A DNA stretch of 8,564 bases, taken from contig JAJYKO010000181.1 of assembly GCA_021788565.1 (NCBI GenBank), positions 1 through 8,564 of the forward strand, written 5' to 3'. Source of the stretch: Chloroflexota bacterium (GTDB lineage Bacteria; Chloroflexota; UBA6077). Below, piece by piece: positions 1 to 8,564 of this stretch. Each line of letters opens with the position of its first letter. Position 1 is the first letter of the stretch. The position numbers and the translations under genes are program-made. The notes beneath the pieces are model-generated. The model searched no databases. It was given only the letters and a program-made list of their open reading frames with translations, and had not been told where the DNA came from.

Positions 1-22
1 ATTTTGAACGGATCGATATCGC

Positions 23-307
23 CTATCGGATGACAGTTGTCGAAGCAGCTGGCGACATGCGCAGGAACAGCGTGAGTGAGCGTTCGATGGTAGCCTTCTT
101 CACCTCGGAGGACTGGGTCTCGACCAGGCACTCCTCCATTCGGGCCGCAACCACGCTCAACGCGACTCTGTCCAGGTCAGCGCGAGCATCCATTATTCGG
201 GTAATCATATCCTCGCAAGGCCGGCCTTCCTCCAGCATTCGTTGGATTCCGTTGACCTGCTCTTCTACTCGCCTGAGCCCTGCCAGGATCCCTCGGCTAT
301 ATCTCAT
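23..307 (-). CDS. CsoR/FrmR-family repressor, CstR-like (persulfide-sensor type)
   Basis: A 94-residue all-helical DNA-binding repressor of the CsoR/RcnR/FrmR/CstR family (DUF156). The family core is seen from residue 12 (RRVEEQVNGIQRMLEEG) through the second helix (ARADLDRVAL). Cys31 (GRPCED) and Cys60 (MEECL) fall exactly at the two thiols that S. aureus CstR uses to sense persulfide. The copper ligand His of true CsoR, four residues before the second Cys, is Arg56 here. The family binds DNA when reduced or ligand-free and releases it on thiol modification or metal binding, so a persulfide/polysulfide sensor is more likely than a Cu(I) sensor. ATG start at 307 with an AGAAGGG Shine-Dalgarno about 11 nt upstream. 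It is divergent from the MFS gene. Its own promoter carries the GAGCnnnnGCTC operator rather than a CsoR-type site, but a CsoR-type operator lies at 4913-4929 between two ferredoxin genes. Family assignment is secure; the CstR subtype is inferred from ligand residues. Confidence 0.9.
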   Translation of the reverse strand: MRYSRGILAGLRRVEEQVNGIQRMLEEGRPCEDMITRIMDARADLDRVALSVVAARMEECLVETQSSEVKKATIERSLTLFLRMSPAASTTVIR

Positions 308-400
308 TTCGCATTTATCCCTTCTAGGGCCCTCTGCTGGCTCTTACGGAATGGCGCGCTTCCTCCCCGGTGCAACAGCAACCGCCCCCCCTGCTCGCTG

Positions 401-417
401 TTATGAGCGTAAGCTCA
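401..417 (-). promoter_or_regulatory. Operator copy 1 (TGAGC-N4-GCTCA) at the cstR-like promoter
   Basis: Perfect 5-bp inverted repeat TGAGC (404-408), GTAA, GCTCA (413-417). Read along the minus strand it is TGAGCTTACGCTCATAA, matching GAGC-N4-GCTCATAA at the MFS and DUF134 promoters in the same direction relative to transcription. It covers roughly -7 to +7 of the predicted start site. The binding protein is not identified; see the copies at 558-569 and 3482-3493. Confidence 0.7.
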
Positions 418-445
418 GAATATTCCGTGGAGGCGGTGCTGTCAA
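417..445 (-). promoter_or_regulatory. Sigma70-type promoter of the cstR-like gene
   Basis: On the minus strand, TTGACA (445-440) is separated by exactly 17 nt from TATTCT (422-417). Transcription would begin near 410, giving a leader of about 100 nt before the ATG at 307. The operator-like inverted repeat at 404-417 abuts and overlaps the -10, so a bound protein would block initiation. Confidence 0.7.
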
Positions 446-522
446 GCAGGGTGCGCAACGCGGTTGCACCGACAGCCCATGTGGCACCTGGTTCCTGCGG
501 GGTTGAAACGGCAATCCTCCGA

Positions 523-551
523 TTGACAACACCGACATGGCTCTCTACGAT
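523..551 (+). promoter_or_regulatory. Sigma70-type promoter of the MFS gene
   Basis: Consensus TTGACA (523-528), 17-nt spacer, TACGAT (546-551). The predicted start site near 558 coincides with the first base of the palindrome at 558-569, leaving a short leader of about 30 nt before the GTG at 590. Confidence 0.75.
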
Positions 552-556
552 GTTGA

Positions 557-573
557 AGAGCATATGCTCATAA
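557..573 (+). promoter_or_regulatory. Operator copy 2, GAGCATATGCTC palindrome at the MFS start site
   Basis: GAGCATATGCTC (558-569) is a perfect 12-bp palindrome. With its flanks (AGAGCATATGCTCATAA, 557-573) it is identical over 17 nt to the minus-strand sequence at 3494-3478 in front of the DUF134 gene. Its position at +1 to +12 relative to the TTGACA/TACGAT promoter is typical of a repressor roadblock. Confidence 0.8.
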
Positions 574-589
574 GGGAGTATGACGCGCG

Positions 590-1855
590 GTGCAGTTCAC
601 CTACATTCCCATTCAGGCGGCAGGGCGCGGGATTTCGTTCGTCGGCAGGCAGGCGCACGATTGGAAGGTCACAGTAGCACGAACGTCGCTGGACAGGCTC
701 GTCTACCAGATGGTCTACCCCTACCTGTCCATCTACATCGTCGCCCTCGGTGCGACGGCAACCCAGCTGGGGGCGATAAACAGCGCGGGCATGCTGGCAG
801 CTGCCGCCCTGGGGCCATCGACAGGCTGGCTCATCGATCGGATTGGCACGAAGAAAATCTATCTGGCCGGCATCGGCATGCTGATCGTCTCATACCTGAC
901 CTACGCGCTGTCCCAGAACTGGCTGATGGCGATGGTGGCCATGGTGGGATACTGGCTGGGATACTCGACCAGCATCCTCGGCTGTGCCACGGTATGCGGG
1001 AACTGCCTGGTGACCCGCGATCGTGCCACCGGGATGATGATCTGCGAAACCGTGGCCGCGGGGCTGCTTGGAATGGCCGGTCCGCTGATAGGGGCGTGGC
1101 TCGTAGCCAGCTCTGGCGGAGTGGAAGTCGGTGCTATTCGCCCCCTGTTTCTCGTCGCGACGGTTACGACGGTGGGAACGTTCGCACTGGTGATGACCCA
1201 GCTGTCCGATCGGCGGTGGGCGAACGTACGCGGCACCCCGAGGGGCATGTTCGGGGACCTGCATCAGGTGCTGAAGGAGGGGCGGTACCTCAAGCGATGG
1301 CTTGCCGCCACCTCGGTCGGCCAACTTCCACTGGCCATGGTCTTCCCGTTCTCCCAGGTATACGCCCACGAGATAAAGGGCGCTGATGCCTACACATTGG
1401 GAGCGATGGTCACGGCGTGTGCCGTGACGTCCATCGTCTTCGCCATTCCTCTGGGGAGGTTCGCCGATCGGTCAGGCAGGAAGACGGTTCTCTACATGGC
1501 GATGCCGCTCTTCTGGCTCTCCAACCTCGTTCTCGTGTGGGCTCCCAACTCGGCGTTCCTGATCGTGGCGGGTGCTCTCCAGGGTTTCTACTACATAGGG
1601 GGTCCCATCCAGTCGGCAATGGAGAGGGAGTTGGTTCCTGCTCACCAGATGGGCCGCTGGCTCGGCATCACTCGCTTCTCTCGGATGCTCGTCAGCTCCA
1701 TCATGGCGATGGTAGCGGGCGTGATGTGGGACAAAGTCGGCCCGCAGTACCTTTTCGTTGGATTTGTGGCTATAGACCTCCTCGTGCGCCTGCCCTTGCT
1801 TGTGCAAGTGCCCGAGACCCTACGCAGAGGGATTGAGGTGGTGGTACGCCTCTAA
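590..1855 (+). CDS. Major facilitator superfamily transporter
   Basis: A 421-residue integral membrane secondary transporter of about twelve helices; its substrate cannot be told from sequence. The MFS motif A is seen twice, once per half: GWLIDRIGTKK at 79-89 and GRFADRSGRKT at 289-299. A hydrophilic central loop lies at about 206-235. The first 35 residues are an ordinary cytoplasmic leader. GTG start at 590; GGGAG at 574-578 gives an 11-nt spacing, and the ATG at 580 is in another frame. Three cysteines cluster in the fourth helix (Cys132, Cys136, Cys139), which is unusual and might relate to thiol or metal chemistry. It is divergent from the cstR-like gene and shares an operator type with it and with DUF134, so export or import linked to sulfur, metal or thiol stress is plausible but unproven. 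The 3' end forms part of a hairpin facing the convergent MBL gene. Confidence 0.9.
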   Translation: MQFTYIPIQAAGRGISFVGRQAHDWKVTVARTSLDRLVYQMVYPYLSIYIVALGATATQLGAINSAGMLAAAALGPSTGWLIDRIGTKKIYLAGIGMLIVSYLTYALSQNWLMAMVAMVGYWLGYSTSILGCATVCGNCLVTRDRATGMMICETVAAGLLGMAGPLIGAWLVASSGGVEVGAIRPLFLVATVTTVGTFALVMTQLSDRRWANVRGTPRGMFGDLHQVLKEGRYLKRWLAATSVGQLPLAMVFPFSQVYAHEIKGADAYTLGAMVTACAVTSIVFAIPLGRFADRSGRKTVLYMAMPLFWLSNLVLVWAPNSAFLIVAGALQGFYYIGGPIQSAMERELVPAHQMGRWLGITRFSRMLVSSIMAMVAGVMWDKVGPQYLFVGFVAIDLLVRLPLLVQVPETLRRGIEVVVRL

Positions 1856-1873
1856 TCCCAGAGTCGTACCACC
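1840..1873. terminator. Hairpin between convergent genes, possible bidirectional terminator
   Basis: GGTGGTACG (1840-1848) pairs with CGTACCACC (1865-1873). The stem continues inward as CTCT/AGAG after one C/T mismatch and closes on the 6-nt loop AATCCC. It spans the last codons and stop of the MFS gene and ends 8 bp before the MBL stop. Neither strand has a U-tract, so it is terminator-like in position and strength but not a canonical intrinsic terminator. Confidence 0.6.
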
Positions 1874-1880
1874 CATGGCC

Positions 1881-2720
1881 TCACAGCTCCCATTCGGAGA
1901 CGGTGCCGACGTTATTGAAGAAGAATCTGTCGCCGAACTCGTGAGCGAGGCGCGCCGACGCCGCCAGTCCGGTGCAGTGGGAGACCCCTAGCTTCTGGAT
2001 GTCGAACCCCCGCAGCGCATCCACGGTTTTCGAGAGCTGCTCCGCGGTGGAGAAGCTCAGGTGCGTGCCTCCCAGCACGGCGAAGATTCTGCCCTCCTCG
2101 GCTACCTCCTGTGCCCTGTGGAGGGTGTTCACCATGCCGCTGTGGGCACAGCCGAGTAGCACCACCAGCCCCCTGGGCGTCTTTACCACTAGCGACTGGT
2201 CGTCCGGCACCTCGTCCTGCTGCCAACCGCCTGGCGCCTTCACTACCAGATCGGCATCCAGCCTCTCGAATGACGTGGTCCTCGGGACCGGGCCGGTGGT
2301 CATCACATCCCGACTGATGCGATCGGGCCCGTCAGAGAACTGGAACGTCGCACCCATGGCTTCCAACTGCTCGCGCACGTACATCAACCCCGCGTACCTT
2401 GGCCTCCTTTCCGCCTTGCGAGCGACGTACCGAGGTCTCCAGATCTGGGAGTGTGCGTGAACACTCACCTCCCCGGTCTGGGCCAGCACGTCCCTGAGGC
2501 CGCCTGTGTGGTCCTGATGGCCGTGGCTGAGAACGATGTGGTCGGCCCGAGACAGATCGACGCCGAGAGCCCGAGCGTTGTGGACGGCGGTGCCGGTCTG
2601 CCCCGTATCCAGCAGGACGCGGAGAGCGTCGACCTCCAGCAACATCGAGAGGCCGTGCTCGGCCAGGGTGTTGAACTTGGTGGCGGTATTCTCGGCCAGG
2701 GTCGTGATCCTGATATGCAT
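1881..2720 (-). CDS. MBL-fold metallohydrolase, COG1237 type
   Basis: 279 residues from the chosen start. The metal-binding signature HGHQDHTGG is at residues 66-74 (ligands His66, His68, Asp70, His71). Later family blocks are GCAHSGMVNTL (His193), GGTHL (His220) and SHCTG near 247-251. This series matches the family often annotated as 7,8-dihydropterin-6-yl-methyl-4-(beta-D-ribofuranosyl)aminobenzene 5'-phosphate synthase-like. That archaeal activity should not be transferred; a cytoplasmic Zn/Fe hydrolase of unknown substrate is the safe call. The frame stays open to an ATG at 2795, but GGAGG at 2730-2734 lies 9 nt before the ATG at 2720, where homology-like sequence (HIRITTLAEN) begins. 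It lies 229 nt downstream of the DUF134 gene on the same strand, and I see no convincing separate promoter, so co-transcription is likely. Confidence 0.9.
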   Translation of the reverse strand: MHIRITTLAENTATKFNTLAEHGLSMLLEVDALRVLLDTGQTGTAVHNARALGVDLSRADHIVLSHGHQDHTGGLRDVLAQTGEVSVHAHSQIWRPRYVARKAERRPRYAGLMYVREQLEAMGATFQFSDGPDRISRDVMTTGPVPRTTSFERLDADLVVKAPGGWQQDEVPDDQSLVVKTPRGLVVLLGCAHSGMVNTLHRAQEVAEEGRIFAVLGGTHLSFSTAEQLSKTVDALRGFDIQKLGVSHCTGLAASARLAHEFGDRFFFNNVGTVSEWEL

Positions 2721-2729
2721 GTACAGGAG

Positions 2730-2734
2730 CCTCC
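2730..2734 (-). promoter_or_regulatory. Ribosome binding site deciding the MBL start
   Basis: GGAGG on the minus strand, 9 nt upstream of the ATG at 2720. The upstream in-frame ATGs at 2795 and 2747 have weaker or no Shine-Dalgarno sequences. Confidence 0.7.
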
Positions 2735-2866
2735 AATATCGCTTCATCTGATTGAGGAGCCGCTCCCAGAGCCGCTCCAGCCCATCCGCCGGCACTCCTC
2801 CGCCCTGCTCTGTGACCGCCCTACCGCTAGACCCTGGTGCTCAGTCAAACAGCGTTTGCTGGATCC

Positions 2867-2922
2867 TGGAATCGAGGCTTCAGCCAGCCGTACCAGTATC
2901 ACCCGCTGAAGCGTCGATTCCA
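2867..2922. repeat. Large inverted repeat between DUF134 and MBL genes
   Basis: An 18-nt left arm (TGGAATCGAGGCTTCAGC, 2867-2884) pairs with 2905-2922 at 17 of 18 positions, with one internal G/G mismatch and a 20-nt loop. It begins 27 nt past the DUF134 stop. No U-tract follows on either strand, so it could be a processing or mRNA-stability element, a weak terminator, a protein-binding site or a small mobile repeat. Confidence 0.75.
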
Positions 2923-2949
2923 CTACGTCAGTAAACGTGTGACCGAACC

Positions 2950-3462
2950 CTAGTCTCGCGCTGCGTCGCGATTGTGCCGGTGATTACCTGGTCCGTGCCC
3001 TTCCGCGACGGACCTACCCTCCGGCACAGTTACACCGCGCTCATTCGGCGCGCCGGGCGATAGGTGGAGATCGGCCGTCTTCTCCTCGCAGTTGGGGCAG
3101 GCCACAGGGATGCCTCTAGTGAGAAGCTGCTCCCAGGAGTGGCCACAATGCCGGCAGCGCAAGTGCATGGGGGCCACCTCGTAGTCCCCACCTTCGATCT
3201 CCAGCGCCTTCCCTGTGACCAGCGCCTCCGCTACCTTCCGGTGGGCCTCATCCTGAATCCGCTGGAAGGTCTGACGGGAGACAGCCATCTCCCTGGCAGC
3301 CTCCTCCTGCTCGAGCCCCAAGAGGTCCTTGAGCCGCAGCGCCTCCAACTCGTCCACCGAGAGCCTCACCTCCTCAAGGAGCCTCATGGGTATGCCCCTG
3401 GGCTTGAAGTAGGTGACCCCCGGCACGAAACAGACCCTCCTGGGCTTCCTGGGTCTTGCCAC
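2950..3462 (-). CDS. DUF134-family HTH regulator with C-terminal zinc ribbon
   Basis: 170 residues. The N-terminal half is a clear DUF134 (PF02001) protein: basic start ARPRKPRRV, then YFKPRGIP (18-25), LSVDELEALRL (34-44), and a helix-turn-helix in QEEAAREMAVSRQTFQRI (52-69), like the sigma-region-4 fold. Residues 103-125 add a zinc ribbon (Cys103-x2-Cys106, Cys122-x2-Cys125), and a His-rich polar tail ends the protein. DUF134 proteins are predicted transcription factors, often near NifX/NafY-domain and Mrp/NBP35-type Fe-S genes, neither of which is in this window. GTG start at 3462 with GAAGGGGG a few bases upstream. The promoter is overlaid by GAGCATATGCTC, the same site found before the MFS gene, which suggests autoregulation. 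The MBL gene follows on the same strand. Confidence 0.9.
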   Translation of the reverse strand: MARPRKPRRVCFVPGVTYFKPRGIPMRLLEEVRLSVDELEALRLKDLLGLEQEEAAREMAVSRQTFQRIQDEAHRKVAEALVTGKALEIEGGDYEVAPMHLRCRHCGHSWEQLLTRGIPVACPNCEEKTADLHLSPGAPNERGVTVPEGRSVAEGHGPGNHRHNRDAARD

Positions 3463-3477
3463 CGCGCCCCCTTCTCA

Positions 3478-3494
3478 TTATGAGCATATGCTCT
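3478..3494 (-). promoter_or_regulatory. Operator copy 3, GAGCATATGCTC palindrome at the DUF134 start site
   Basis: Perfect 12-bp palindrome at 3482-3493. On the minus strand AGAGCATATGCTCATAA (3494-3478) is identical to 557-573. It covers the predicted transcription start (about 3492), 5 nt past the -10. Confidence 0.8.
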
Positions 3495-3498
3495 CATC

Positions 3499-3527
3499 AT
3501 CATATGGTGAGAGCCCGCGAAAGTCAA
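3499..3527 (-). promoter_or_regulatory. Sigma70-type promoter of the DUF134 gene
   Basis: Minus strand TTGACT (3527-3522), 17-nt spacer, TATGAT (3504-3499). A second CATATG-centred imperfect palindrome (TCATCATATGGTGA, 3497-3510) overlaps this -10. Its centre is 16 bp from the centre of the main operator, so two sites on roughly adjacent helical turns may exist. Confidence 0.75.
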
Positions 3528-3541
3528 GGTCTGGCACGCGG

Positions 3542-3550
3542 TGGTATAAT
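3542..3550 (+). promoter_or_regulatory. Extended -10 promoter for the GAF leader transcript
   Basis: TGGTATAAT is a consensus TG-n-TATAAT extended -10. The -35 region (AGTCAA at 3522-3527) is poor, as is common with extended -10 promoters. The start site would be near 3556, about 268 nt before the GAF start codon, so the transcript has a long leader. Confidence 0.6.
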
Positions 3551-3613
3551 GTCTCTACAATACCGTAGAAGCTTGTTCTGGCGCGCGGCGCTCGGTGACC
3601 GGTGGGCATCGAA

Positions 3614-3657
3614 AGCCAGCTTCGGCACGGGGCTGCCGGGGCTGGCTATTGTTCTTT
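3614..3657 (+). terminator. Terminator-like hairpin in the GAF leader (possible attenuator or sRNA end)
   Basis: AGCCAGC (3614-3620) pairs with GCTGGCT (3641-3647). Nested inside is CGGCA (3623-3627) with TGCCG (3634-3638). The stem is followed by ATTGTTCTTTA, a U-rich run. It lies between the extended -10 at 3542-3550 and the GAF gene, so termination would yield an RNA of about 100 nt and readthrough would express GAF. Two further hairpins follow, 3710-3729 (CCGGCC/GGCCGG) and 3751-3770. No known riboswitch class was recognised. Confidence 0.5.
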
Positions 3658-3750
3658 ATGAAGGGGGGGATGTGGCGCTCCGACGCTCACGTTGCCATCA
3701 GAAGCTATTCCGGCCAGATTGCGGGCCGGGACTCGCCAGCGTAGCCGAGA

Positions 3751-3770
3751 GATGACCCTCGCGGGTCATC
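3751..3770 (+). repeat. Perfect hairpin GATGACCC-TCGC-GGGTCATC upstream of GAF
   Basis: An 8-bp perfect stem with a TCGC tetraloop, 43 nt before the GGGAGG ribosome binding site. With no U-tract it is more likely a leader RNA structure or protein-binding site than a terminator. Confidence 0.6.
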
Positions 3771-3823
3771 GCCAGCATGGCCGTTCGGTCCCAGGAACCG
3801 GTCCGGACGGATGGGAGGCTGTG

Positions 3824-4420
3824 ATGAGGATGTCGGATGAGTCCTACTGCCGTTACTATCACGCCCTCTACCGCGTGGCCGCGACGATCAACTCGAGCCT
3901 CGACCCTGGAGCCGTGTTGCAGGCTATCGTCCAGAACACCACCGAGGCGATGGGTGTGAAGGCATGCTCCATAATGCTGCTCAGCCCTGATAGACGGGAG
4001 CTGCGCCATAGCGCCACCTATGGACTGAGCAACACCTACCTCAAGAAGGGGCCTGTGAGCGTCGACCTTAGCATGGCCGAGGCGCTGAAAGGGCGCTCCA
4101 TCTCGGTGCGGGACGCGGGCTCCGACCCGAGGGTTCAGTATGGGCGCCAGAACACGGCGGAAGGGATTGCCTCGATGCTTTCGGTGCCCATGCGACTGCG
4201 TGGGCAGATCATCGGTGTCATGAGGATCTACTCCGGCGAACCGACGGATTTCGACCACGAGGACACTGAGTTCGTGGAGGCGGCCGCCCATCTGGGTGCG
4301 ATTGCCCTGGAGAACGCCCGCCGCCACGACGAGCTCCAGTACAACTACGATATGATCACTCGCTACGTCTACAGCGATACCTGGGTGGGACAGCTGTGGT
4401 CTACAGAGAAGACCGCCTAA
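3824..4420 (+). CDS. GAF-domain sensory protein
   Basis: 198 residues, essentially one GAF domain (about 26-175). N-terminal sequence LYRVAATINSSLDPGAVLQAIVQNTTEAMGV is the usual helix entry to GAF sensors. It continues with ACSIMLLSPDRREL, a central AEGIASMLSVPMRLRGQIIGVMRIY strand block and the exit helix FVEAAAHLGAIALENAR. No kinase, GGDEF or HTH output domain follows; the last 25 residues end in RYVYSDTWVG. It is therefore a stand-alone ligand or redox sensor likely acting through a partner. Start chosen at ATG 3824 because GGGAGG (3813-3818) lies 5 nt upstream; the frame is open upstream to 3692 but that stretch does not resemble protein. It is divergent from DUF134, and a strong terminator hairpin follows at 4454-4478. 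Only Cys9 and Cys48 could serve thiol sensing. Confidence 0.85.
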   Translation: MRMSDESYCRYYHALYRVAATINSSLDPGAVLQAIVQNTTEAMGVKACSIMLLSPDRRELRHSATYGLSNTYLKKGPVSVDLSMAEALKGRSISVRDAGSDPRVQYGRQNTAEGIASMLSVPMRLRGQIIGVMRIYSGEPTDFDHEDTEFVEAAAHLGAIALENARRHDELQYNYDMITRYVYSDTWVGQLWSTEKTA

Positions 4421-4453
4421 AGACAAGCGGCCGACTCTACAGTTCGGCGAGGA

Positions 4454-4478
4454 GCCGGGAGCATCCATAGCTCCCGGC
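4454..4478 (+). terminator. Rho-independent-like terminator after GAF
   Basis: GCCGGGAGC (4454-4462) pairs perfectly with GCTCCCGGC (4470-4478) around a 7-nt loop, followed by CCCATTCTTCC, a modest pyrimidine tail. It begins 33 nt after the GAF stop. Confidence 0.75.
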
Positions 4479-4510
4479 CCCATTCTTCCCGGAGGCCGCC
4501 CGGAGAGTGA

Positions 4511-4597
4511 CCACCAAGTCACAAAGAACACAAAGAGGCGCTACGAAATCCTCTGGTGAAGCACCGTGACATTCGTGTCCTTCGTGCCTTTGTGCCT
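4511..4597. repeat. Intergenic inverted repeat of CACAAAG/CACGAAG units
   Basis: The left part (4511-4536) contains CACCAAG, CACAAAG, CACAAAG at 8-10 nt intervals. The right part (4571-4597), read on the minus strand, contains CACAAAG, CACGAAG, CACGAAT with the same rhythm, so the two halves face each other. This pattern resembles dispersed intergenic repeats seen in many environmental bacterial genomes. It lies in the 218-bp gap between GAF and the first ferredoxin. Confidence 0.55.
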
Positions 4598-4638
4598 GTC
4601 GGATAAGTCGCCGCTGAAGCGGGCGGAGCGGAATAGGG

Positions 4639-4857
4639 TCAGGCTCTAGCCTGGAAACGGCCGTTGGGGGTTGGAGTGTTGTCCGGTACTTCCTTGAAGA
4701 CGCGGCAGCTCGAGGTGCAGCGCCCGCACTCGATGCAGGTCTCTTTGTCTATTGTGGGGGCACTGTACCCCTCCTGCTGCAGCGCGCCAGTGGGGCAGAC
4801 ACGGAGGGTGGGGCAGCGATGGTTCTGAGGGCAATATTGCGACTGGACCAGGATCAT
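4639..4857 (-). CDS. Small 7-Cys ferredoxin-like Fe-S protein A
   Basis: 72 residues, a cytoplasmic electron-transfer protein of the bacterial ferredoxin fold. Motif 1 is Cys9-x5-Cys15-x5-Cys21-Pro (CPQNHRCPTLRVCPTGAL), instead of the usual CxxCxxCxxxCP. Motif 2 is the standard Cys41-x2-Cys44-x2-Cys47-x3-Cys51. Seven cysteines leave one cluster short of a Cys ligand, so one 4Fe-4S plus a 3Fe-4S or a cluster with a non-Cys ligand is possible. ATG at 4857 with GAGGTGG about 6 nt upstream. It is divergent from a second ferredoxin of the same unusual spacing, with a CsoR-type operator between them. The C-terminal tail (NTPTPNGRFQARA) is polar and probably disordered. Confidence 0.85.
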   Translation of the reverse strand: MILVQSQYCPQNHRCPTLRVCPTGALQQEGYSAPTIDKETCIECGRCTSSCRVFKEVPDNTPTPNGRFQARA

Positions 4858-4909
4858 GAAACCACCTCGGAGTAAAAGTGCCGCGCTTGCGCGGCCGGAA
4901 GGGTACTGC

Positions 4910-4939
4910 TAGATACCCCATAGGGGTATATGGTACAAT
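4910..4939. promoter_or_regulatory. Overlapping divergent promoters of the two ferredoxin genes
   Basis: Plus strand: extended -10 TGGTACAAT (4931-4939) with a weak -35. Minus strand: TTGTAC (4938-4933), 17-nt spacer, TATCTA (4915-4910). The two promoters overlap almost completely, so one operator at 4913-4929 can control both directions. Confidence 0.6.
4913..4929. promoter_or_regulatory. CsoR/CstR-type operator
   Basis: ATACCCC (4913-4919), ATA, GGGGTAT (4923-4929) is a perfect 7-bp inverted repeat of the TACCC/GGGTA style recognised by CsoR-family repressors. It sits inside the spacers of both divergent ferredoxin promoters. A CsoR-family gene lies at 23-307 in the same window, and no similar site was seen in front of that gene. 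Confidence 0.75.
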
Positions 4940-4993
4940 CCGGTCGCCGGACGGTCAAGTCCGAGCCATCTGCCGATTTCCTGGGGGTTTGCC

Positions 4994-5233
4994 ATGCCGG
5001 TGATCATCGACTACAACCTCTGCGACGGGGTCCAGGATTGTGCCGCCGTTCGGATGTGCGACGCAGAGGCCCTCTACTTCGACGTGTCCACGGGCCGCAT
5101 CGAGTATGACAAGGAGAAGTGCCGAAACTGCGGCACATGCGCCAACTACTGCGGTCCCAGTGCCATCCTCCACGTGGAGTCTGAGGAGGAGTGGGAGGAG
5201 ATTCGCGCCATGACCGATGCTCAGGGCGTATAG
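4994..5233 (+). CDS. Small 7-Cys ferredoxin-like Fe-S protein B
   Basis: 79 residues. Motif 1 is Cys10-x5-Cys16-x5-Cys22 (CDGVQDCAAVRMCDAEAL), and motif 2 is Cys43-x2-Cys46-x2-Cys49-x3-Cys53. This is the same layout as the divergent ferredoxin A, so the two look like paralogues or partners. Here the Pro after the third Cys is Asp, and the region after the last Cys is GPSAI. An acidic C-terminus (VESEEEWEEI) could dock a basic partner. ATG at 4994 with a G-rich Shine-Dalgarno (TGGGGGT) about 7 nt upstream. It forms an operon with the DUF2892 peptide, whose ribosome binding site starts at the stop codon. Role: low-potential electron transfer, partner unknown. Confidence 0.88.
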   Translation: MPVIIDYNLCDGVQDCAAVRMCDAEALYFDVSTGRIEYDKEKCRNCGTCANYCGPSAILHVESEEEWEEIRAMTDAQGV

Positions 5234-5238
5234 GGAGG
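5233..5238 (+). promoter_or_regulatory. Ribosome binding site deciding the DUF2892 start
   Basis: GGGAGG, beginning on the last base of the ferredoxin B stop, 8 nt before the ATG at 5247. The open frame reaches an earlier ATG at 5217 inside ferredoxin B without a comparable site. Confidence 0.7.
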
Positions 5239-5246
5239 CGTCGACA

Positions 5247-5450
5247 ATGAGTTGCACCGTTGGCAAGCAGTCCAGGGTTCTCAGGGTGGCTGTAGGTATG
5301 GTGGCGCTGAGTGTTGGGGTCTATCGCCGCAACTGGCTCGGAATCCTTGGCCTCTTCCCGCTCCTCTCGGGCATCACTGGCTGGTGCCCGCTTCCAGATC
5401 CTTTCGGGCTCTCCACCTGCGAAGCGAAGGATACATCCAGGTATAGCTGA
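5247..5450 (+). CDS. YgaP-like DUF2892 membrane peptide
   Basis: 67 residues forming a two-helix membrane hairpin (about 11-26 and 30-46). It matches the DUF2892 transmembrane unit found alone or at the end of rhodanese protein YgaP: VLRVAVGMVAL, then NWLGILGLFPLLSGITGWCPL and FGLSTC. Cys47 and Cys58 are the two conserved cysteines of the GxCPL...TC ending; Cys3 is extra. Stand-alone DUF2892 genes commonly accompany sulfurtransferase and persulfide genes, including those under CstR/CsoR-type repressors. That fits the operator upstream of ferredoxin B and the CstR-like gene in this window. Its biochemical role is unsettled. It is translated 13 nt after ferredoxin B, so the two should be made together. 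Confidence 0.85.
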   Translation: MSCTVGKQSRVLRVAVGMVALSVGVYRRNWLGILGLFPLLSGITGWCPLPDPFGLSTCEAKDTSRYS

Positions 5451-6004: not shown

Positions 6005-8564
6005 ATGGTTCTCGATACAGACATCACCGAAGTAGGGAGGAAACGAATAGGTCAGGTATTTCGATACCTGGAAGCTCTGAACCAACTAAGAAACCCTGTT
6101 GTTCGCCAGGTAAGTGAGCAGCCTTGGGTTTTGTGGCTGCGTCGCCTGCCAGACCATCCATCGATACGCAGGGGTACTTTCGCCGACACCGCCTCTGGTT
6201 CGGCCCTCATCGACAAGACCGGCGATGCCCCTGAACCCGCTTCGGCTGATGACTTTGTTCTTCGCGTCCGACGCCCGATTATCAGACCAGCGCCGATTCC
6301 GCCAGAGGAGATCGCTCAATGGCTTCGGGCTGGGTGGGCCGACATCGACGGGCAAGTCGAGGTGTCTGCGTCTCGCAACGCAACCGACGACAATGGCGAG
6401 ACGATCATTGTTCGCTTCTGGGATGACCCGCAGCGGCCCATGCTCCTCGCGACCTGGAAGACGCGGAGGGATCTATGGGCCGTCAACGAGAGGCCGGCCC
6501 GAGAGGCGTTAAAGGTGTTCGAGCGGCTCTACGAACTGCGAGGCCGGATCGAGCGAGAGGGCGAGCGGGTAGAGCTGGTGCTGGGGGACGGCATTCTCAA
6601 CTGGCGTCGCCCAGATGGAGGCATCCATCACCCAATTCTGCTCCAGCGGCTCCAACTGGAGTTCGATCCCGACGTTCCCCAGTTCTTCCTTCGAGAAACG
6701 GATCACCCAGTAGAGCTCTACTCGGCGCTGTTCCGAGCCGTCCCGGAGGTGGACTTTCGAGCTATAAGTCGGTGCCGCGACGAACTCGAAGCCGCGTCCT
6801 ACCACCCGCTTGGCTGGGACGACATTTCGGGCTTCCTCCATAGCCTGGTAACGCAGCTCTCGGCCCACGGCGAGTTCGTGGAAGAAGGCGAATTGCGTGG
6901 TGAGTACGACCACCCGCGCATCGGTCGAGACCCGGTCATCTTCATGCGAACCCGCACGCAAGGCTTTGCCACGGCTATCGAAGCGGTCATAGAGGATCTG
7001 CCGGCCAGGGAGGAGTTCCCCCACTCCCTACTGAACATCGTTGGCCTGGAGCCCGTCCCCGAAGAAGCCGAATTCGAGAACGTGGCCTTGCGAGCGGATG
7101 CCGGCAACGACGATGAACAAATCCTGTTGAGCAAACCGGCGAACCCTGAGCAACTCCGCATCGCCCAGCGATTGGAGCAGTACGGGTCTGTGTTGGTGCT
7201 GGGTCCGCCGGGCACGGGCAAGACCCACATGGTCGGCAACCTCATAGGCCACCTACTCGCTCAGGGTAAGAGCGTCCTGGTAACCAGCCACACCACCAAG
7301 GCCTTGAAGAGGGTTAGGGAACAGGTCATCAAGGATCTGCGTGCCCTCTGCGCCAGCGTACTCGAAAGCGATGCCGCCAATCAGGCTGAATTGAAGCACT
7401 CCATCGAAGCCATCGTCGACCGTCTATCCTCAACGGACACCGACTACCTGGAACAGCAGGCCGCCGTTCTTCAGAAGCAGCGGGGAGAGATCCTGGAGCG
7501 GCTACGCCACGCTCGGAATCGCCTGAAGAAGGCTCGTGGCGAAGAATACCTGGAAGTGATCGTGGCGGGTGAGAGCTTCACGCCGGCCGATGCCGCTCGA
7601 CGAGTAGCCGCAGGCAAGGGCGAAGCCGATTGGATTCCAGGTCCTGTTGCCCTCGGTGAGCCTATGCCTCTTTCCCTTGGCGAACTCAGTGATCTGTACC
7701 GAACAAACGGCAGCGTGACGGCTGAGGACGAGAGCGAGTTGGCGGCTTCGTTGCCTCAGCCGGGGCAGCTGCTGGTACCCGAGGAGTTCAATCGCCTCGT
7801 CGAGGAGAGAGTGCGTCTCTCTGGAGAGGACCTGCAGCTGAGAGATGATCTCTGGCGAGAGCCACCGAACGTGCTGAATCCCGAGGACATCGAGGCTCTG
7901 CTCGACCGGATACGCCGTGCGATGGAGCTGATCCAGGACTGCCGGGACTGGAAATTGGCGCCGATTGCCGCTGGGCGGCGGGGTGGCCCGCACCGAGAAT
8001 TTTGGGACAACCTTCTGACCCAGATATCAGCAGCTGTTGAGGGTTGCGCCAAGGCCAGGGAATCGATCCTGGCGCACGGGCCGAAACTGTCCGAGAAGCA
8101 TGCCCTCGACGCCCAGATCCGGCTGCTGGAGGAGATTGTCGCTCACCTGGAGAGCGGCAAAGAGCTATCGGGCATCACACTCTTGCGCCATCGGGACTGG
8201 AGCAGGCTGATAGACCAGGTGAGGGTCGATGCTGGTCAACCGCAGCAGCTAGCGCACTTCAAGGCTCTGCACGCCATGGCCACCGTCCAGGCCACGAGAC
8301 AGGATTTAGTGCTCCGCTGGGAGCGGCAGATGGTGCCCCTGGGCGGCCCCTCTAAGGCAGATCTGGGCGACCAGCCCGAAGAAGCCTGTGCCCAGTACAG
8401 CCCCCAGCTCAAAGCGGCGCTGAACTGGCACAATGAGGTCTTTGTCCCGCTGGAGTGGGAACTGAGCCAGATCGGTTTCTCGTGGCATGCTCTGTTGAAA
8501 GAGATGCCGCCAAATCTGTCGGCATACGGCGACCTTCGACGCATAGCAGAAGCTGCTCTGAAGC
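6005..8564 (+). CDS. Large P-loop, SF1-helicase-like protein (5' part, open at window end)
   Basis: 853 codons are read without a stop and the frame is still open at the window edge. ATG at 6005 is the first start after an in-frame TGA at 5987, with GCGAGGG 8 nt upstream. Residues 1-375 match nothing I recognise. Residues 380-394 (NPEQLRIAQRLEQYG) resemble a Q-motif lead-in. GPPGTGKT at 400-407 is a Walker A, and VLVTSHTTKAL at 424-434 is a motif Ia, as in Upf1/Dna2-type AAA_11 superfamily 1 helicases. After that, from about 445 to 853, comes a long charged, helix-rich, probably coiled-coil insertion with no motif II yet. Motifs II-VI and any C-terminal nuclease must lie outside the window. 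Large SF1 helicases with such insertions occur in anti-phage systems (for example Mokosh-type) but also as orphan genes; defence is a guess. It has its own promoter and no link to the upstream redox genes. Confidence 0.85.
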   Translation, partial: MVLDTDITEVGRKRIGQVFRYLEALNQLRNPVVRQVSEQPWVLWLRRLPDHPSIRRGTFADTASGSALIDKTGDAPEPASADDFVLRVRRPIIRPAPIPPEEIAQWLRAGWADIDGQVEVSASRNATDDNGETIIVRFWDDPQRPMLLATWKTRRDLWAVNERPAREALKVFERLYELRGRIEREGERVELVLGDGILNWRRPDGGIHHPILLQRLQLEFDPDVPQFFLRETDHPVELYSALFRAVPEVDFRAISRCRDELEAASYHPLGWDDISGFLHSLVTQLSAHGEFVEEGELRGEYDHPRIGRDPVIFMRTRTQGFATAIEAVIEDLPAREEFPHSLLNIVGLEPVPEEAEFENVALRADAGNDDEQILLSKPANPEQLRIAQRLEQYGSVLVLGPPGTGKTHMVGNLIGHLLAQGKSVLVTSHTTKALKRVREQVIKDLRALCASVLESDAANQAELKHSIEAIVDRLSSTDTDYLEQQAAVLQKQRGEILERLRHARNRLKKARGEEYLEVIVAGESFTPADAARRVAAGKGEADWIPGPVALGEPMPLSLGELSDLYRTNGSVTAEDESELAASLPQPGQLLVPEEFNRLVEERVRLSGEDLQLRDDLWREPPNVLNPEDIEALLDRIRRAMELIQDCRDWKLAPIAAGRRGGPHREFWDNLLTQISAAVEGCAKARESILAHGPKLSEKHALDAQIRLLEEIVAHLESGKELSGITLLRHRDWSRLIDQVRVDAGQPQQLAHFKALHAMATVQATRQDLVLRWERQMVPLGGPSKADLGDQPEEACAQYSPQLKAALNWHNEVFVPLEWELSQIGFSWHALLKEMPPNLSAYGDLRRIAEAALK

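Follow-up and report, generated by a model that had tools for sequence, protein, structure and literature searches.

Three copies of a probable palindromic operator in the window

The 8,564-nucleotide contig JAJYKO010000181.1 of a Chloroflexota bacterium (assembly GCA_021788565.1), the whole of which is referred to here as the window, carries three copies of a 20-bp palindrome, TTATGAGCATATGCTCATAA, at the promoters of genes for a CsoR/RcnR-family regulator, a transporter of the major facilitator superfamily (MFS) and a protein of the DUF134 family (UPF0251, PF02001). All three copies fit this unit, with one outer arm imperfect in each. PF02001 is, by its Pfam name, a family of unknown function, to which the window protein is assigned with a score above the curated cut-off. 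The results are taken, with good confidence, to identify the palindrome as the operator of this DUF134 protein, which would act as the repressor of its own gene and of a small regulon; the sites, their positions, their conservation and their covariation with protein residues are computational observations, from which we infer binding, repression and the signal.

The core GAGCNTANGCTC occurs without mismatch at 405–416, 558–569 and 3482–3493 and at no other place in the window (the chance mean of 5.27 obtained for GAGCNTANGCTC refers to matches with up to 2 mismatches and is no measure of exact ones). In its 20-bp form, with at most 3 mismatches allowed, the motif was found at exactly three sites versus 0.02 expected, and three were reached in 0 of 200 shuffles. 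With a weight matrix derived from 43 sites in other genomes, the window being excluded, the three sites scored 18.4–22.4 (Table 1), versus a best score of 8.5 over 200 shuffled windows; the next window place scored -2.6. A first-pass annotation of the window had reported three copies of a GAGC inverted repeat followed by ATAA, all reading in the direction of transcription. The three copies of the repeat were borne out, and the MFS and DUF134 copies indeed have 17 identical nucleotides in common, AGAGCATATGCTCATAA; the ATAA, however, is not a separate tail but one arm end of the 20-bp palindrome, and because the unit is palindromic the operator has no real direction. The matrix scan yielded no fourth site, and the ferredoxin and helicase genes lack a copy in front of them, as that annotation had stated.

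A consensus promoter scan of positions 1–5300 detected 10-of-12 promoters with 17-nt spacers at these three places, confirming that each site lies at or just past a -10 element. The gap between the -10 element and the GAGC of the core is 6 nt for the MFS gene, 5 nt for the DUF134 gene and 0 nt for the CsoR/RcnR-family gene.

Table 1. Predicted operators, promoters and genes of the window
Feature	Position	Strand	Basis or remark
Operator copy 1, TTCTGAGCTTACGCTCATAA on minus strand	401..420	-	Just past -10 of CsoR/CstR-like gene; matrix score 19.7
Operator copy 2, TGAAGAGCATATGCTCATAA	554..573	+	MFS gene; matrix score 22.4
Operator copy 3, ATGAGAGCATATGCTCATAA on minus strand, putative autoregulatory site	3478..3497	-	DUF134 gene; matrix score 18.4
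Promoter of CsoR/CstR-like gene, TTGACA-17-TATTCT	417..445	-	Promoter scan
Promoter of MFS gene, TTGACA-17-TACGAT	523..551	+	Promoter scan
Promoter of DUF134 gene, TTGACT-17-TATGAT	3499..3527	-	Promoter scan
CsoR/RcnR-family regulator, CstR-like	23..307	-	PF02583 match, 3.1e-16, 60 bits, cut-off 22.8
MFS transporter	590..1855	+	Pfam
MBL-fold hydrolase, 3' of DUF134 gene	1881..2795	-	Pfam
DUF134 protein (UPF0251, PF02001), C-terminal zinc-ribbon-like Cys cluster	2950..3462	-	2e-24, 86.4 bits, cut-off 27
GAF protein	within 3692..4420	+	Pfam
Two ferredoxins and YgaP-like membrane protein	window		Pfam
Helicase-like protein	6005..8563		Cut by contig end

Conservation of the predicted operator upstream of DUF134 genes

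One search returned 1,959 DUF134 relatives, and an alignment of 28 DUF134 proteins was used to find loci in named genomes; the best 80 of 584 confirmed loci were retrieved and all 80 were used. When upstream regions were scored for any 20-bp palindrome, TTATGAGCATATGCTCATAA and variants of it emerged in many of the 80 loci. A match of at least 16 of 20 bases was present within 130 bp upstream of DUF134 in 43 of the 80 loci, and a 20/20 match in 6, the numbers of matches at 16 or more bases expected by chance per 80 loci being 0.0 from shuffles and 0.11 from random segments. A TTATGARCATATGYTCATAA-type operator thus precedes its own DUF134 gene in the window (3478–3497) and in 43 of 80 relatives. 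Presence of the motif before DUF134 orthologs was the check on which the first-pass annotation had staked its reading, and the motif is there in about half of the loci and across phyla: site-bearing loci belong to the Chloroflexota, Deltaproteobacteria, Zixibacteria, Omnitrophota, Ignavibacteriae, Planctomycetota and Firmicutes, and two of them (L007 and L043) are archaeal.

In three loci (L042, L080 and L001) the site seems to head an operon in which DUF134 lies farther down; in L042 and L080 a gene with a TrmO_N domain is found immediately 5' of DUF134, behind the same operator. Four Firmicutes loci (L034, L037, L038 and L049) have two sites approximately 35–60 bp apart, the first of which includes a -35-like TTGACA (TTATTGACATATG). 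DUF134 was found over the cut-off in 166 of 285 Omnitrophota genomes, with up to 5 matches per genome, and at least three operator classes (GAGC, TTAGC/TTGGC and GAGT) were seen among the Omnitrophota loci fetched.

Covariation of operator bases with recognition-helix residues

Covariation tables were computed from the 131 of 180 loci that had a site at 16/20 or better; a first set had comprised 53 rows at 14/20 or better, with the window included. Forty loci were added from the listed matches without a locus that had an open frame of at least 122 amino acids, a few such matches being left out. Over all residue-base pairs tested in the 131 loci, the four highest z-scores belonged to residue 63 with base 8 of the half-site (60), residue 68 with base 5 (29), residue 55 with base 7 and residue 67 with base 7.

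In the first set, base 5 was T in both arms in 5 of 5 loci with N68 versus 0 of 48 with R68. This rule held in the 100 newly fetched loci, for which G and T were counted alike in the scoring: both arms read T in 8/8 N68 loci with a site versus 2/68 R68 loci. Over the 131 loci of the covariation tables the counts were 13/13 for N68 versus 2/118 for R68. L080, whose site is at -479, and the second DUF134 gene of G481 (L196) also fit the rule; L252, an N68 locus among the new ones, had no site. Of the 24 loci with Q63, 23 have T at base 8 in one or both arms, compared with 2 of 107 for other residues, even though the scoring did not favour T there. Base 7 reads A/A in 22/23 loci with H67 (14/108 for other residues) and G/G in 40/41 loci with G67 (39/90 for other residues). 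Because the rules for residues 63 and 67 were derived from pooled data, it is the residue-68 rule that was tested on new loci. By alignment, the window protein has R63, Q67 and R68, which predicts G5, mostly G7, and C8, and the window operators read GAGC.

These residues fall in the putative DNA-reading part of the protein. In a predicted model of the DUF134 protein, a helix-turn-helix was located within residues 36–83, with the third helix starting from residue 63; the mean pLDDT of 66.9 is moderate, and the confidence is good for residues 31–80. A Foldseek search with the model retrieved domains of the sigma region 4 and DeoR types, for which the probabilities were high and the E-values 0.07 or more, and the sequence match to Sigma70_r4_2 (5.5e-4) was below the cut-off. 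The search of solved structures gave no DUF134 structure, the best match being a DeoR DNA-binding domain (E 7e-4). We propose that a DUF134 dimer, assumed because the operator is palindromic, would bind the 20-bp palindrome via a helix-turn-helix resembling sigma-70 region 4, and that residues 63, 67 and 68, which open the recognition helix, would determine half-site bases 8, 7 and 5, respectively.

It could be argued that the covariation is hitchhiking within a few clades, in which case the residue contacts would be wrong and DUF134 might still bind. In a tree calculated without the recognition columns, the changes numbered at least two at residue 68, three at residue 63 and six at residue 67 (H), and shared descent may explain part of the correlation between residues and bases. 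Several points count against the residue assignment: 1 to 2 independent pairs are left on well-supported branches, independent residue changes are so few that sign tests cannot reach 0.05, residue 93, which is outside the helix-turn-helix, also correlates with base 5, and two R68 loci read T/T at base 5. In the independent pairs the base mostly followed the residue and hardly ever did the opposite; furthermore, all the residues with the four highest z-scores belong to the helix-turn-helix and three to its recognition helix, so that hitchhiking as the explanation is considered unlikely. Since relatives carry the site before DUF134 and the site covaries with the DNA-reading residues, DUF134 very probably reads it, which supports the proposal in the first-pass annotation that DUF134 is the likely regulator.

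Distribution of the predicted operator in whole genomes

Sixteen DUF134 genomes were searched for the 14-bp core, which was present in 13, with 11 of them carrying a single copy, namely that before DUF134; 12 of the 16 had been picked since the site had already been seen there, and the informative part of this result is therefore the scarcity of other copies. The closest named relative with DUF134 genes found was Chloroflexi bacterium UBA6077. Within the class of UBA6077, DUF134 was over the cut-off in 1 of 29 genomes and the core was found in 5 of 29, with three copies in UBA6077 and one each in the four others.

Co-occurrence of the motif with DUF134 genes, another check proposed in the first-pass annotation, was found when the 197 genomes of one class were compared. 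The core TGAGCNTANGCTCA was present in 11/40 genomes with DUF134 versus 6/157 without (Fisher 3e-5), and exact TGAGCATATGCTCA in 6/40 versus 0/157 (Fisher 5e-5). Four of the six exact TGAGCATATGCTCA copies directly precede DUF134, and the copy in L143 precedes a ferredoxin and Nitro_FeMo-Co pair. The copy in L146 (G183) lies near a methionyl-tRNA synthetase gene, away from DUF134 and without an obvious regulon partner.

Ten genomes, selected because they carry DUF134, were also searched for the 20-mer with as many as 3 mismatches allowed; the 12 genomes of another set had been chosen likewise. Twenty distinct sites were obtained, versus 0 with the reversed-pattern control. Eleven of them head DUF134 genes or apparent operons, and six precede genes for Mrp ATPases (two), Nitro_FeMo-Co proteins (two), a cation-efflux/Nitro_FeMo-Co fusion (one) and an MFS ortholog (one), while three had no resolved assignment; metallocofactor genes thus follow 5 of the 9 sites located off DUF134.

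The first-pass annotation had named as its main alternative an unlinked metal sensor of the ArsR/SmtB type, for which DUF134 would be merely one target. The dyad resembles ArsR-family sites, as noted in that annotation, and an ArsR-type gene adjoins one site in UBA6077; no ArsR match was obtained among the nine window open reading frames scanned with Pfam. Such a sensor is disfavoured because the operator bases track residues in the recognition helix of DUF134, and in addition the sites are enriched in genomes with DUF134 and 11 of the 20 strong sites in the 10 carriers are at DUF134 genes. This alternative is now regarded as very unlikely.

Genes associated with the predicted operator

Among the 46 of 80 loci in which a next gene was found within 250 bp 3' of DUF134, that gene encoded a Nitro_FeMo-Co protein in 11, an Mrp/NUBPL-type ATPase in 10, DUF5320 in 8 and DUF364, a putative heavy-metal chelation family, in 6. 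The matrix scan gave 40 sites off DUF134, of which 18 were looked at and the neighbours of 14 were scanned. These sites precede genes for Mrp-type ATPases, Nitro_FeMo-Co, DUF5320, NifU_N and DUF1847 proteins, and, in addition, TrmO_N genes, a gene for a rhodanese-domain disulphide oxidoreductase (L005) and an open reading frame matching no family; 4 of the 18 had no gene assigned. In P0017, P0029, P0038 and other relatives, DUF134 is fused to a Nitro_FeMo-Co domain. A gene for a cation-efflux/Nitro_FeMo-Co fusion (L161:2454-3731) lies behind a DUF134-type site and is followed by ZnuA, ABC, ABC-3 and ArsR-type genes, with a second DUF134-type site after the ArsR-type gene and before an Mrp ATPase gene.

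The MFS ortholog of UBA6077 (81% identity), located on another contig, was the sole match in 301 genomes. It has two upstream sites, the farther scoring 26.9 and the nearer 15.0, and the nearer one, judged by eye, sits behind a TTGACA-17-TAGCAT promoter, as in the window. CsoR-like relatives were found at four places in two of four genomes, none with the operator. The local regulon suggested in the first-pass annotation therefore stands for DUF134 (43/80 loci) and for the MFS transporter (UBA6077 ortholog) and does not extend to the CstR-like gene in UBA6077; the evidence for that member comes from the window, because the site is absent before its UBA6077 relative.

Position of the predicted operator and the proposed mode of regulation

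The position of the sites was compared with that of the best promoter in 200 bp, in a search not tied to the site. A promoter of at least 9 points was found in 51 loci and none in 4 of 55. In 46 of the 51 loci the distance from the site centre to the -10 end did not exceed 25 nt, compared with 26% for random placement, and the distances fall into sharp classes at about -22, -11 and +12, that is, over the -35 element, between -35 and -10, and just past -10. These classes (51 loci) are approximately 11 bp or multiples thereof apart, a spacing that would keep the regulator on the same side of the DNA helix.

All window copies are at or just past the expected transcription start, as they would be if the motif acted as RNA, with transcripts beginning in a 4-bp hairpin. 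In relatives, however, the palindrome is often between -35 and -10 or over -35 and hence would not be transcribed; 18 of the 51 promoter-bearing loci have its centre 11 or 21–22 nt 5' of the -10 end. This makes an RNA element hardly credible.

In the proposed mechanism, DUF134 would repress transcription of its own gene and of the other members of a small regulon by occupying the -10/+1 region or, in relatives, the -35 element or the stretch between -35 and -10. The regulon of the relatives would consist largely of DUF134 together with Nitro_FeMo-Co, Mrp/NBP35 ATPase, ferredoxin, DUF5320 and DUF364 genes and metal transporters; that of the window would additionally take in the MFS transporter and the CstR-like gene. 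Release might occur by a metal or metallocluster signal via the zinc ribbon or a Nitro_FeMo-Co domain. Cys 103, 122 and 125 of DUF134 are kept in 80, 77 and 76 of the 80 loci, respectively, which suggests a metal site, although sensing via this Cys part cannot be general because many of the newly fetched shorter relatives are without these residues.

Repression was judged most likely because of the position of the site at the promoter. DUF134 could instead be the cognate protein and act as an activator or dual regulator, given that repression is itself an interpretation; the site centre lies within 25 nt of the -10 end in nearly all promoter-bearing loci, a position from which a bound dimer should obstruct the polymerase, and this possibility is considered improbable.

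Further observations weigh against regulation by DUF134 as proposed here. At 16/20 within 200 bp, 49 of 180 DUF134 loci have no site, part of them because the scoring rejects T at base 8, and many Firmicutes among the first 80 loci are without one. In the class of 197 genomes only 4 of the 11 core-bearing DUF134 genomes have a copy adjoining DUF134, and in five others the cores are degenerate, lie on other contigs and may be chance occurrences. The letters of site and promoter overlap in the -22 and -11 classes, which aids the apparent coupling, and the preference for repression over activation is read from the position of the sites. For the window regulon, the nearer MFS site in UBA6077 scores just 15.0, distant MFS relatives in 2 of 23 genomes of a distant class (52–54% identity; DUF134 status of these genomes unchecked) lack the operator, and the CstR-like relative in UBA6077 (68% identity) has no DUF134-type site.

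As a broader and tentative proposal, to which we give somewhat less than even weight, the DUF134 proteins may be widespread and ancient metallocofactor-responsive repressors of Bacteria and Archaea, with a recognition code at residues 63, 67 and 68, that sense the cluster or metal load of their Nitro_FeMo-Co and Mrp partners; the lineage of the window would then have recruited the MFS transporter and the CstR-like regulator, wiring metal-cluster to sulfur homeostasis.

A CsoR-type site at the ferredoxin genes and other features of the window

Members of the CstR subgroup sense persulfide via two conserved Cys residues and are without the metal-binding His. The translated CsoR/RcnR-family protein of the window has C31 and C60, with R rather than His at position 56, and on this two-Cys reading we take it to be CstR-like. 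The palindrome TACCCCATAGGGGTA at 4914–4928 is an exact CsoR/CstR-type site (0.26 expected at up to 2 mismatches), has the run of at least 4 G or C of CsoR/RcnR operators, and lies on or next to a divergent pair of promoter-like sites between the ferredoxin genes; it is a likely target of the CstR-like regulator of the window. In UBA6077, the sequence TACCC-ATGGA-GGGTA was seen just 5' of the CsoR-like relative (L164), in place of a DUF134 site, and is perhaps its self-operator.

That the CsoR/CstR-like protein itself binds the three operator copies would agree with the location of one copy before its gene and with the variability of sites in this family, Thermus TTHA1953 binding TACNNTACNNNNGTANNGTA, which is without a G/C run (PMC10318464, in the portion available). 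However, most CsoR/RcnR homologs described there bind sites with runs of at least 4 G or C, and no such run occurs in the three operator copies. With the G/C-run site of the window lying elsewhere, at the ferredoxin promoters, and the UBA6077 relative being without a DUF134-type site, binding by this protein is highly improbable.

The gene for the MBL-fold hydrolase and the DUF134 gene are possibly on one transcript, and an MBL-fold gene likewise borders a DUF134-type site in L037. The helicase-like protein shows a weak likeness to the anti-phage protein ProA (1.8e-10, far below the cut-off). A plasmid search with positions 1–3600 of the window gave no match.

Comparison with known systems

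No described function or operator of DUF134/UPF0251 was found in the open literature, as judged on top-ranked titles and abstract openings, in line with the first-pass annotation, and no paper was found there for the operator letters; in the part of PMC5886521 available, UPF0251 is mentioned in a mutation table. To the family are added here a predicted operator, a predicted recognition code and a predicted regulon. The result, an operator and a residue-level code predicted for a family not yet characterised, would make DUF134, so far an unknown domain, a testable regulator of Fe-S/Mo-type cofactor modules such as NifX-like proteins and Mrp ATPases, and the code would allow operators to be predicted from sequence for any DUF134 protein.

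According to the sections consulted of PMC6345978, Fe-S clusters are bound by both the Mrp and the Nitro_FeMo-Co-type domain of Desulfovibrio MrpORP, and the Mrp domain is able to pass its cluster on. The ORP/MrpORP system of Desulfovibrio vulgaris thus has target families in common with the DUF134 regulon, namely Mrp/NBP35 ATPase and Nitro_FeMo-Co; it consists of two divergent operons under a sigma-54-dependent promoter, and those sections name no DUF134 operator. Shared with the CsoR/CstR repressor systems covered in the available portion of PMC10318464 are the CstR-like gene of the window and its CsoR-type site at the ferredoxins, but CsoR/CstR sites are mostly G/C-run palindromes, unlike the DUF134-type GAGCATATGCTC. 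A similar argument, in which operators from comparative genomics were combined with correlations between residues and motifs, was made for the GntR and IclR families (PMC4494728, PMC8222616, as far as these sources were available); these families differ from DUF134, which is predicted to have a helix-turn-helix like that of sigma-70 region 4.

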